A stretch of DNA of 54,806 nt from Clostridium sp. (lineage in GTDB: Bacteria; Bacillota; Clostridia; Clostridiales; Clostridiaceae): positions 1 to 54,806 of the forward strand of contig JARLHR010000132.1 of assembly GCA_031292145.1 (NCBI GenBank), read 5' to 3'. The position numbers were made by a program, and so were the translations under genes. Below the pieces are notes generated by a model. It ran no database searches. It was not told the DNA's origin and saw nothing but the letters and a program-made list of their open reading frames with translations. Below, piece after piece: positions 35,434-38,132 of the stretch (positions within the stretch are counted from its first letter, which is position 1; every line of letters starts with the position of its first letter).

Positions 35434-36828
35434 CTATGCTACATTTCTTTTAACATCTTCTACATTTTTCTTTTTTGACTTAAGTATCTTGTAAATCACC
35501 CCAAGCATTATAAACCATACAGGTGTTACAAATAGGGCTACACGAGTTTCATTATTAAGAGCCAACGTAACTATAACAAAAGCAAAAAATGCTAGAATTA
35601 TATAGTTTATGATTGGGTAAAGTGGCATTTTAAATTTACTCGAAGCCGCAAGTTCAGGATTAGTTTTACGATATTTTAGATGGCAGATAACTATAATTGC
35701 CCAAATAAAGATAAAGCAAAATGTTGATATACTTGTAATTAGTACAAATACCCCTTCTGGCATAATGTAGTTCAAAATAACTGAAATCAAGATAACAGTT
35801 GCAGAGAATACTGTAGCATTAGAAGGTACTTGACTAGAAGTTAATTTTTTCATTGATTCAGGTGCATTATCTTCTTTAGCAAGAGAGTAAACCATACGAC
35901 TTGTACTGAAGATACCACTGTTACAAGCAGATGCAGCTGATGTTAGTACAACGAAATTTACAATACTTGCTGCTGCTGCGATTCCCACTGTAGCAAATAC
36001 CTGTACAAATGGGCTTTTATCTGGACTAATTGAATTCCATGGGTATATGCCCATAATAACAGCAAGTGCTCCAACATAGAAAATAATAATTCTAATTGGA
36101 ATATTGTTAATAGCCTTTGGAATAACATGCTCTGGATTTTCAGTTTCACCAGCTGTGAGTCCTACTAATTCCATTCCAGTGAACGCAAATACAACCATTT
36201 GGAAGGAAAGGATAAAACCACTTATTCCATTTGGGAACCAGCCTCCATGACTCCAAAGGTTTGTAAAGCTAGATGCACCAGCATCTGTAGAAAATCCTTT
36301 AATAATCATAAATGTACCAATTATAATTAGTGCTACAATCGCAATAACTTTAATTAACGCAAACCAGAATTCCATTTCACCAAAATGTTTTACTGCTGTA
36401 AGGTTCATTATTAGTAAAACTACAAGAACTACAAGACTCGGAACCCATCGAGCTATATTCGGAAACCAGTACTGTATATAAAGCCCAGTAGCAGTTACGT
36501 CAGCCATAGCAAGTGAAATCCAGCAGAACCAATAGGTCCATCCAGTAATAAATGCTGCTCTTTCTCCTAGATAATCATATACAAAGTCTACAAAAGAATG
36601 ATAATTTAAATTAGAAAGTAATAATTCCCCAAGAGCGCGCATTACAAAAAATAAAATTGTTCCTGTTATCATATACGCAAATAAAATTGATGGGCCGGCC
36701 AAGTGAATTGACCTTCCTGAACCAAGAAATAATCCAGTACCAATTGCCCCTCCAATTGCAAGCAATTGAACATGACGATTTTTTAGTCCTCTTGATAAGT
36801 CTTGATTTTTTGATGTTGATTGATCCAT
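35434..36828 (-). CDS. APC-family amino-acid permease, CycA-like (glycine/alanine/serine type)
   Basis: 464 residues, twelve membrane helices. The AAT-family start reads QLLAIGGAIGTGLFLGSGRSIHLAGPSILFAY, followed by GELLLS and SFVDFVYDYLGERAAFITGW and later FAFTGMELVGLTAGETENPEHVIPKAI. The closest functional model is the D-serine/D-alanine/glycine transporter CycA. The tandem glycine riboswitch ahead of it supports glycine as substrate or signal. Such switches turn on glycine cleavage or export/uptake genes when glycine is high. GGAGGG precedes the ATG; the leader is about 490 nt with the inserted R1 repeat. Confidence 0.9.
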   Translation of the reverse strand: MDQSTSKNQDLSRGLKNRHVQLLAIGGAIGTGLFLGSGRSIHLAGPSILFAYMITGTILFFVMRALGELLLSNLNYHSFVDFVYDYLGERAAFITGWTYWFCWISLAMADVTATGLYIQYWFPNIARWVPSLVVLVVLLIMNLTAVKHFGEMEFWFALIKVIAIVALIIIGTFMIIKGFSTDAGASSFTNLWSHGGWFPNGISGFILSFQMVVFAFTGMELVGLTAGETENPEHVIPKAINNIPIRIIIFYVGALAVIMGIYPWNSISPDKSPFVQVFATVGIAAAASIVNFVVLTSAASACNSGIFSTSRMVYSLAKEDNAPESMKKLTSSQVPSNATVFSATVILISVILNYIMPEGVFVLITSISTFCFIFIWAIIVICHLKYRKTNPELAASSKFKMPLYPIINYIILAFFAFVIVTLALNNETRVALFVTPVWFIMLGVIYKILKSKKKNVEDVKRNVA

Positions 36829-36971
36829 TTTTATCCCTCCATCTTAGTCAAAAGACATGTACTAAAAATGCCTTTTCCTATATAAGTATTTTGTGATTGG
36901 AGATACAAATGGGAATAGATAAGATCTAAATGAAGTAATTAATAATATATTACTTTTGTAAGATATTTTAC

Positions 36972-37312
36972 CTTTCCCCTGTCCTTTTACCTGAGAGTTT
37001 CGCCTTACGACTTTCTCCTTCGGTGCTCATTAGGCACATGAAAAAAATAATAGCCCAAAGATGCGACGCATATTTCGGGTCAGACAAGAAAGCAAATTCT
37101 GCTCATAGTGGGCCTATTAGTAGAATTCGCTGACGCAGTATGACGCGAAATAGGCAAGTATACTGGTCTATTATTTTTTTGATTGTGCCTTAAAAGTCTC
37201 TCCAAGGGTTCATCCAATAACGGTCATCTCTAATTAAATAGGTACCTGAAAGATTTACTTCTTCGGTGAATGGCTATCGCCATTACTCTCCCGCTATCTT
37301 CGTCTGAACTTT
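36972..37312 (-). promoter_or_regulatory. Tandem glycine riboswitch, second aptamer interrupted by an R1 repeat
   Basis: On the minus strand aptamer I reads GCGGGAGAGT, a hairpin AATGGC-GATA-GCCATT, CACCGAAGAAGTAAAT and CTTTCAGGTACC. Aptamer II starts CCTTGGAGAGACTTT and resumes after a 162-bp insert (37031-37192) with GAGCACCGAAGGAGAAAGTC and ends ACTCTCAGGTAAAAGGACAG. The conserved cores of both aptamers are intact; the insert falls in the variable stem between GGAGAGA and CACCGAAG. The downstream 140 nt have an AAGTAAT/ATTACTT stem but no clear intrinsic terminator, so the control point is unclear. The regulated gene is the permease at 35434-36828. Confidence 0.9.
37031..37192. repeat. R1 MITE-like repeat, 162-bp copy inside the riboswitch
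   Basis: The ends TTAGGCACATGAAAAAAATAATAG and its near inverse CTATTATTTTTTTGATTGTGCCTTA form terminal inverted repeats of about 22-24 bp. Inside, ATGCGACGCATA and GACGCAGTATGACGCG form partial stems. No coding capacity. Flanking TTA on both sides is compatible with a TA-type target duplication, as in Tc1/mariner-like or IS630-like MITEs. Confidence 0.8.
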
Positions 37313-37328
37313 TAAATTTTACTGTTAT

Positions 37329-37357
37329 ATACTAATACATTTTTAATAAAGTTGCAA
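37329..37357 (-). promoter_or_regulatory. Candidate promoter of the glycine riboswitch
   Basis: Minus strand: TTGCAA (37357-37352), 17-nt spacer, TAGTAT (37334-37329), just before the first aptamer. Both boxes match consensus at four of six positions. The remaining gap to 37670 is AT-rich and must also contain the promoter for the GtrA gene on the plus strand. Confidence 0.4.
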
Positions 37358-37670
37358 CAATTTTTTCATTTTAATTAAAATCAAGAAGTATTTTTATCAT
37401 AATTTTAAAAACATTTATAAAAAAGTAACAACATTAAGTTAAAACTATATAAATTCATTACTACATTTAAATAATAAAGCCATAATGTAACAGTCAAACC
37501 AGAATTCTCTTACTTAATTTCGAGATTTCGTAACTTGAATGACATAATTAAGAATTATTATAAGTATATAGCGACACTATTTATATTAATAAAAAATACA
37601 CTGTTCTTAAATATAGCAATAAATTAAATCAAATTTTAGTTTATCAATAAATTAAAAGGAGCGGAATTAC

Positions 37671-38132
37671 ATGACTATTGTTAAAAATATTTACAACACC
37701 TTTATAAATAATGAAAAATATAAAAATATTATAAGATTTGGCTGCGTAGGATGCTTAAATACTATGTTTGACTTTGGAGTGTTTTCCTTGTTAAATAGTT
37801 TTTTTGGTATTAACTATGTTATAAGTCAGATAGTATCATATTGCAGCGGTACTTTAAATAGTTATATCTGCAATAAATTTTGGACGTTTAATGATACAAA
37901 AACAAATAAAAAAACAACAAAAGAAATTGTTCAATTTATTGTTGTTAATTCAGCTTCATTAGGCGTAAGCTTAATAGGATTAAGTATATTAATGAAAGAT
38001 AATTCTATAAATCCTTTTTTTTCTAAAGTTTTCGCAATGGTATTAGCACAAGTTGTTAATTTTTTAGGCTACAGATTTTGGGTTTTTGGTGGAACAGTAA
38101 AACTAAAGTCTTGTGCTAACAATATAGCGTAA
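37671..38132 (+). CDS. GtrA-family membrane protein
   Basis: 153 residues, four membrane helices, with the family marks IIRFGCVGCLNTMFDFGVFSLL and CNKFWTFND near the second helix. GtrA proteins are thought to move lipid-linked sugars across the membrane or to support surface-glycan transfer. AAAGGAGCGG precedes the ATG. It starts a plus-strand group with a GT39 glycosyltransferase and a GT2 dolichol-phosphate-type transferase, the common trio for making, flipping and using a polyprenyl-phosphate sugar. Confidence 0.88.
   Translation: MTIVKNIYNTFINNEKYKNIIRFGCVGCLNTMFDFGVFSLLNSFFGINYVISQIVSYCSGTLNSYICNKFWTFNDTKTNKKTTKEIVQFIVVNSASLGVSLIGLSILMKDNSINPFFSKVFAMVLAQVVNFLGYRFWVFGGTVKLKSCANNIA

Follow-up and report, generated by a model that had tools for sequence, protein, structure and literature searches.

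The window, by which we mean the whole 54,806-nt stretch of Clostridium sp. DNA analysed here, carries on its minus strand a tandem glycine riboswitch followed by an amino-acid permease gene, and the second aptamer of this riboswitch is interrupted by a 157-bp miniature inverted-repeat transposable element (MITE). The features, in the order in which the minus strand reads, are:

37329..37357, minus strand: likely promoter (TTGCAA, 17 nt, TAGTAT), read from the sequence by eye
37211..37303, minus strand: glycine aptamer I (RF00504, 46.8 bits; P1, P2 and P3 pairs in an alignment of 20 riboswitches)
36976..37208, minus strand: glycine aptamer II including the insert (RF00504, 36.1 bits, from the 3' part and some MITE bases; predicted fold; pair counts)
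37190..37192, minus strand: target-site duplication, 5' copy, TAA (sequence; 29 of 33 exact-ended copies)
37033..37189, minus strand: 157-bp MITE, GGCACAATC...CATGTGCC (copies in the genome and in the genus, hairpin fold)
37030..37032, minus strand: target-site duplication, 3' copy, TAA (sequence; 29 of 33 exact-ended copies)
36829..36975, minus strand: leader from aptamer II to the gene, the expression platform region (conserved in relatives, 11 leaders side by side)
35434..36828, minus strand: regulated gene, an APC amino-acid permease of 464 aa (open reading frame list, NCBIfam)

Both matches to Rfam family RF00504, at 37303-37211 (46.8 bits) and 37052-36972 (36.1 bits) of the minus strand, exceed the gathering score of 32. 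The second starts within the insert, its first 20 or so bases being MITE letters that replace the 5' part of aptamer II; its 36.1 bits are thus not a clean score for this aptamer. The P1 stem of aptamer II pairs CCCTTG with CAGGGG, its P2 pairs C37196, T37195 and T37194 with G37028, A37027 and G37026, and its P3 lies on the 3' side of the insert. The putative promoter ends about 25 nt before aptamer I and has a similar sequence at the same place in several relatives; a promoter scan of 36800-37700 does not list it, and a simple scan of the same interval finds no terminator in the insert. A ribosome-binding site, GGAGGGA, occupies 36834-36840. The permease finds its best NCBIfam match in PRK11049, the D-serine/D-alanine/glycine transporter (E 2.7e-191; 636.6 bits, below the cut-off of 732), and by its sequence would be CycA-like, closest to this transporter.

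The inserted element and its family

The element starts with GGCACAATC, ends with CATGTGCC, is bounded by GGCAC...GTGCC and forms an imperfect palindrome over most of its length, whose two 20-nt arms (37038-37057 and 37164-37183) show 90% complementarity. A stretch of 150 of the 157 nt has a folding energy of -46.2 kcal/mol; the value for 200 shuffles is -25.0 (sd 3.6). Together with the existence of a dispersed family, the complementary arms and the low folding energy show that the insert is not a chance sequence. The open reading frame list holds no frame of at least 80 aa overlapping 37033-37189. A sequence-only reading had placed here a MITE-like insert of 162 bp (37031-37192): its terminal inverted repeats stand, its length does not, the element being 157 bp long and the remainder flanking target-site bases.

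In its own genome the element occupies at least 40 places at 83-100% identity, the window copy included and some copies incomplete, a lower bound because 40 of 551 first-look candidates were scored; the window copy is up to 94% identical to the others. Across the genus, copies mostly 155-160 bp long occur in 23 of 68 genomes (the window's own included). A pattern for one end, TWA included and with up to three mismatches, so that an element with two good ends counts twice, has 200 matches in the window's genome (G000), 234 in G039, 87 in G043 and 11-37 in eight others; the reversed pattern, used as a control, has none in any of the 11. We examined 43 copies, 25 of them in the window's genome and 18 in relatives, after setting aside five truncated loci of the window's genome and one from a relative; 33 have both ends exact and 10 do not. 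The flanking 3 nt are identical in 29 of these 33, as TTA in 17 and as TAA in 12, among them the window's copy. Copy number and the 3-bp TWA target-site duplications thus bear out the MITE-like character first read from the sequence: the inserted element is a MITE.

IS5/PIF-like elements make TWA or TNA target duplications, and it is in this duplication alone that the window's MITE resembles them; searches with PF13359 and PF01609 gave no transposase with these ends: the former has no match in any of five genomes, and around 30 loci matched by the latter in four genomes no matching GGCAC ends lie 800-2600 bp apart. A candidate autonomous element on contig C74 of G000, with ends about 1 kb apart, proved to be two MITE copies around an ordinary gene, and the element has no match in plasmid and phage collections. 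Several contigs of this draft genome (C69, C154, C167, C174 and C211) begin inside a MITE copy, so these repeats seem to break the assembly.

The length and hairpin of the MITE are kept across species, and both sides have changed in 23 of its 42 predicted pairs, a count made without a shuffle control. These two-sided changes may reflect selection or copying between the arms; since the arms of a palindrome can correct each other, they are no proof of a function of the RNA.

Conservation and predicted fold of the interrupted riboswitch

The alignment of 20 tandem riboswitches comprises 16 of the 19 same-genus leaders described below and four from named relatives, with L032, L038, L039 and the leader of C. 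akagii (L075) outside it. The window keeps 127 of the 128 columns that are invariant in the 19 other rows, which, left out in turn, themselves depart at 0-2 invariant columns; at its single exception, in P2, T replaces C and pairing is retained as U-G. With these invariant bases and two Rfam matches, both aptamer cores are indeed readable on the minus strand, as had been noted from the sequence. In the window's row each of the 42 named pairs is a standard one, and over the whole alignment 98.2% of the cells are paired, against 31-44% when the partners are slid by one to three columns; shuffling the partners, however, still leaves 96.2% paired. Because 27 of the 42 pairs are constant throughout and the window itself served as template for the structure, these counts say little beyond conservation, and covariation is limited to P2 of aptamer I. 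The intact conserved bases are consistent with function rather than proof of it; the window's core by itself proves little, since a recent insertion might not have left time for decay to become visible.

The 332-nt leader folds at -97.1 kcal/mol (z -4.85 against 100 shuffles). In the predicted fold, aptamer II forms its P1 and its three-pair P2, followed by a small internal loop, then the hairpin of the MITE, and P3; the P1, P2 and outer P3 of both aptamers are kept, with the register of the inner P3 shifted in both. Fold and alignment to the 19 relatives agree in placing the insert in the variable P2 stem of aptamer II (P2-II), which it lengthens, as had been proposed.

Long and short stems in related leaders

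A search with the permease at E 1e-200 finds 31 places in 20 of 68 genomes of the genus, of which 30 loci were read (G032:C48 was left out). A tandem riboswitch precedes the permease at 19 of the 30, and 11 are without one, as judged by exact motifs within 1.5 kb, a search that could miss decayed or distant riboswitches. In 15 of these 19 leaders the P2-II segment is short, with 11-17 nt between the flanking motifs, as it also is in C. magnum, C. frigoris and C. carboxidivorans; in the other four it measures at least 77 nt (172 in the window, 80 in G051, 80 in G027 and 77 in G065). The uninserted form sought among orthologous permease leaders is thus present, and it is false that all relatives carry the segment, which is absent from most. 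In seven loci (L032, L034, L035, L038, L039, L040 and L141) the gap between riboswitch and permease is 375-593 nt, against 145-215 nt in leaders of the window's type, and holds an apparent remnant of a small reading frame.

Aptamer II scores 57.9-65.5 bits in 10 relatives, against the 36.1 bits of the window, which come partly from MITE letters. The Rfam alignment spans the natural P2-II insert in G051 (L036; 59.9 bits, 156 nt) and in G027 (L040; 53.6 bits, 155 nt); in G065 only aptamer I is matched and the insert-bearing aptamer II is not.

Other stems of the same riboswitch also carry inserts. The variable stem of aptamer I holds a 63-nt palindrome in G043, with related copies elsewhere in that genome and an Rfam score for the aptamer just below the cut-off (31.8 bits); a 51-nt version of this stem containing GGCA...TGC occurs in G051, in addition to its P2-II insert; and in C. 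akagii DSM 12554 the stem carries a 67-nt palindrome that is flanked by TTA at either end and matches the MITE profile weakly (9.7 bits). The permease tree groups C. akagii with C. frigoris and DSM 17811 (100/96), both of which are short in this stem. The palindromes of G027/G065, G051, G043 and C. akagii, whether in P2-II or in the variable stem of aptamer I, have ends similar to those of the window's element. The P3 segment of aptamer II is 181 nt long in G030, 178 nt in G050 and 85 nt in G023; parts of the G030 segment have 44 matches in that genome (itself included), mostly pieces of 30-60 nt. In G030 (L038, 883-1052) and G050 (L039) it is AACAATTAACAATT-rich sequence that expands this P3 loop to about 180 nt, and the only Rfam match in both leaders is at aptamer I. 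Counting all these stems, a segment of at least 51 nt occurs once or more in 8 of the 19 same-genus riboswitches, and C. akagii adds a further case.

Among 40 other MITE loci (29 in the window's genome, 11 in relatives), cmscan at gathering scores places none inside an Rfam family; there is thus no sign of riboswitch targeting in general, with the proviso that this cut-off could miss family members broken by an insert. In L164 (G025:C29) a MITE at 1501-1656 lies about 80 bp before a tandem glycine riboswitch (1737-1919), not inside it. Within the 30 permease loci, an nhmmer profile at E up to 1 finds four elements in riboswitches and five elsewhere; the match in L036 is weak (E 0.077), the insert in L141 is missed, and C. 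akagii is not in the count. The sample measures 130,769 nt, of which 40,966 nt lie outside open reading frames of at least 90 aa, and includes 19 riboswitches, each about 165 nt long. A binomial test gives a probability of 0.003, which becomes 0.019 once the window's own copy is left out; this is a hint only, given the small sample, related rows, approximate lengths and uncorrected test.

How many insertions these leaders record can be judged from an rpoB tree of 20 genomes, in which G023 and G065 have no match. G027 groups (100/100) with G060, G008, G059 and G034, and G051 (87/83) with G038, all short in P2-II. Counted by parsimony, the sequences suggest about four or more independent insertions, including those in aptamer I of G043 and C. 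akagii; with losses allowed, the firm minimum is that two different stems have each been hit. Tolerant positions of this riboswitch have thus been hit more than once within the genus. A single insertion into P2-II of a common ancestor, passed down to G000, G051 and G027/G065 and lost in the other lineages, would compete with this recurrence, not with the mechanism discussed below. It draws on the similarity of the inserts to that of G027 (80% over 68 query positions in G065, 78% over 63 in G051), on the window-like ends of all P2-II inserts, and on trees that leave it room, G000 having no firm position in the rpoB tree and the permease tree being poorly resolved; with the closest rpoB groupings of G027 and G051 short in P2-II, and the window's element longer, flanked by exact duplications and reaching 94% identity with copies elsewhere in G000, we regard it as unlikely, though G000 and G051 may share theirs. 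The G027 and G065 leaders also differ in arrangement, the gene lying about 375 nt away, where the window has 189 nt.

G027 and G065 have a P2-II insert in common, and the pair allows the surrounding switch to be followed over time. Their inserts differ at 12 of 68 aligned positions, with 7 further gap positions, the rest of the riboswitch at 4 of 176 (Fisher p 7e-5 against the insert), and the permease genes at 17 of their 192 fourfold sites (p 0.007 when compared with the riboswitch minus its insert). Of the four changes in the riboswitch, three are in unpaired positions and one turns a G-C pair of the aptamer II P3 into G-U. The riboswitch outside the insert being more conserved than fourfold sites suggests that selection kept this switch after the insert had arrived. 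The evidence concerns another, shorter insert than that of the window.

Mechanism, alternatives and known systems

These observations fit a mechanism that we consider likely, drawn from sequence comparison and modelled folds. A non-autonomous 157-bp MITE would have transposed into the P2 loop of aptamer II, duplicating the 3-bp TAA; transcribed into RNA, the imperfect palindrome would pair with itself and extend the three base pairs of P2 as a long stacked hairpin, so that P1, P3, the glycine pocket and the platform could still form; and the switch, with its longer P2, would go on responding to glycine, though its folding kinetics may have changed. An AU-rich hairpin of such length could also slow folding or be a target for cleavage by RNase III. 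That the switch may still work had been suggested from the sequence alone, and the conserved cores and the G027/G065 pair point indirectly the same way; the other outcome then envisaged, a one-aptamer switch, is less likely than a working one.

A rival to the working switch is that the insertion put aptamer II out of action, so that the leader would act as a one-aptamer switch or be fixed in a single state. A P2-II of 172 nt, where 15 of 19 leaders have 11-17 nt, a hairpin that could mispair during transcription and the low Rfam score of aptamer II would all fit this; it is nonetheless improbable, since the window keeps all but one of the invariant columns with every named pair possible, the predicted fold retains P1, P2 and the outer P3, and in G027 and G065 the riboswitch has been conserved around an insert at the same place. 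Alternatively, the element may have been recruited, its long stem adding a function (a site for RNase III or a protein, or a delay giving the aptamer more time) and being kept by selection. The recurrence of inserts in the same riboswitch and the hairpin kept across species, with its two-sided changes counted without a shuffle control, would speak for this; however, the G027/G065 insert differs no less than the permease fourfold sites and so shows no constraint, the arms of a palindrome can correct each other, and the inserts vary between species in length and sequence, all of which makes recruitment a distinctly remote prospect. That two unrelated stretches were joined at a repeat during assembly is scarcely credible: the genome is a draft of 282 contigs and several copies do lie at the very start of one, yet the flanking sequences here join up as a single riboswitch, 5' half before 3' half, and bear the TAA duplication known from other copies, and the matching permease gene follows on the same contig.

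A working switch with a mobile insert in P2-II therefore remains the reading we prefer, its function being predicted from sequence and modelled folds. The finding itself is sound, and the recurrence in relatives goes beyond what the sequence-only reading had claimed. The origin of tolerated stem-loops in riboswitches can seldom be seen; in this case the source is legible as a mobile palindrome with its target-site duplication, relatives with the short stem still exist, and in two related species the common insert has diverged where the surrounding switch has not. As a palindrome can be absorbed by a hairpin loop with little harm to the fold, a testable rule for the growth of structured RNAs follows. 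Tentatively, and with somewhat less than even confidence, we propose that tolerant stems (P2-II, the variable stem of aptamer I and the P3 loop of aptamer II) are recurrent sites of landing or survival for palindromic mobile repeats, that the switches persist through speciation with the repeat in place, and that 'variable insertions' in riboswitches have mobile palindromes as a general source.

The leader resembles other tandem glycine riboswitches of RF00504 in having two aptamers upstream of a glycine-type permease, with the invariant bases kept, and differs from them in the 157-bp transposable repeat within P2 of aptamer II. The available part of PMC6944388, on the evolution of glycine riboswitches, has no occurrence of 'insertion' in its main text. 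Many riboswitches tolerate long non-conserved insertions that form stem-loops at specific sites (PMC2258182, as far as accessible), and the present case shares with these 'variable insertions' the non-conserved stem-loop, the tolerated site and the undisturbed core; it differs in that the insert can be recognised as a mobile repeat bearing target-site duplications, 'transpos' not occurring in the main text of that paper as available. Prokaryotic MITEs are short, bounded by terminal inverted repeats, typically intergenic and dispersed, and have stable structure as transcripts (PMC10969869, accessible part); the window's element shares their shortness, terminal repeats, dispersal and stable transcript structure. 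The same part of that article only conceives of MITEs forming riboswitches, citing BOX elements, and does not mention insertion into an aptamer, and the available portion of PMC9208149, which compared the positions of insertion sequences with riboswitch motifs, holds no case like the window's. In the literature within reach, which excludes most subscription papers, we found no MITE inside an aptamer; the nearest case is the pneumococcal trp operon, where, according to the accessible text of PMC3049150, a BOX element lies between two T-box riboswitches that apparently still work. Both are dispersed structured repeats co-transcribed with riboswitches; the BOX element, however, sits between its riboswitches, whereas here the repeat lies inside an aptamer helix, with similar cases in several species.
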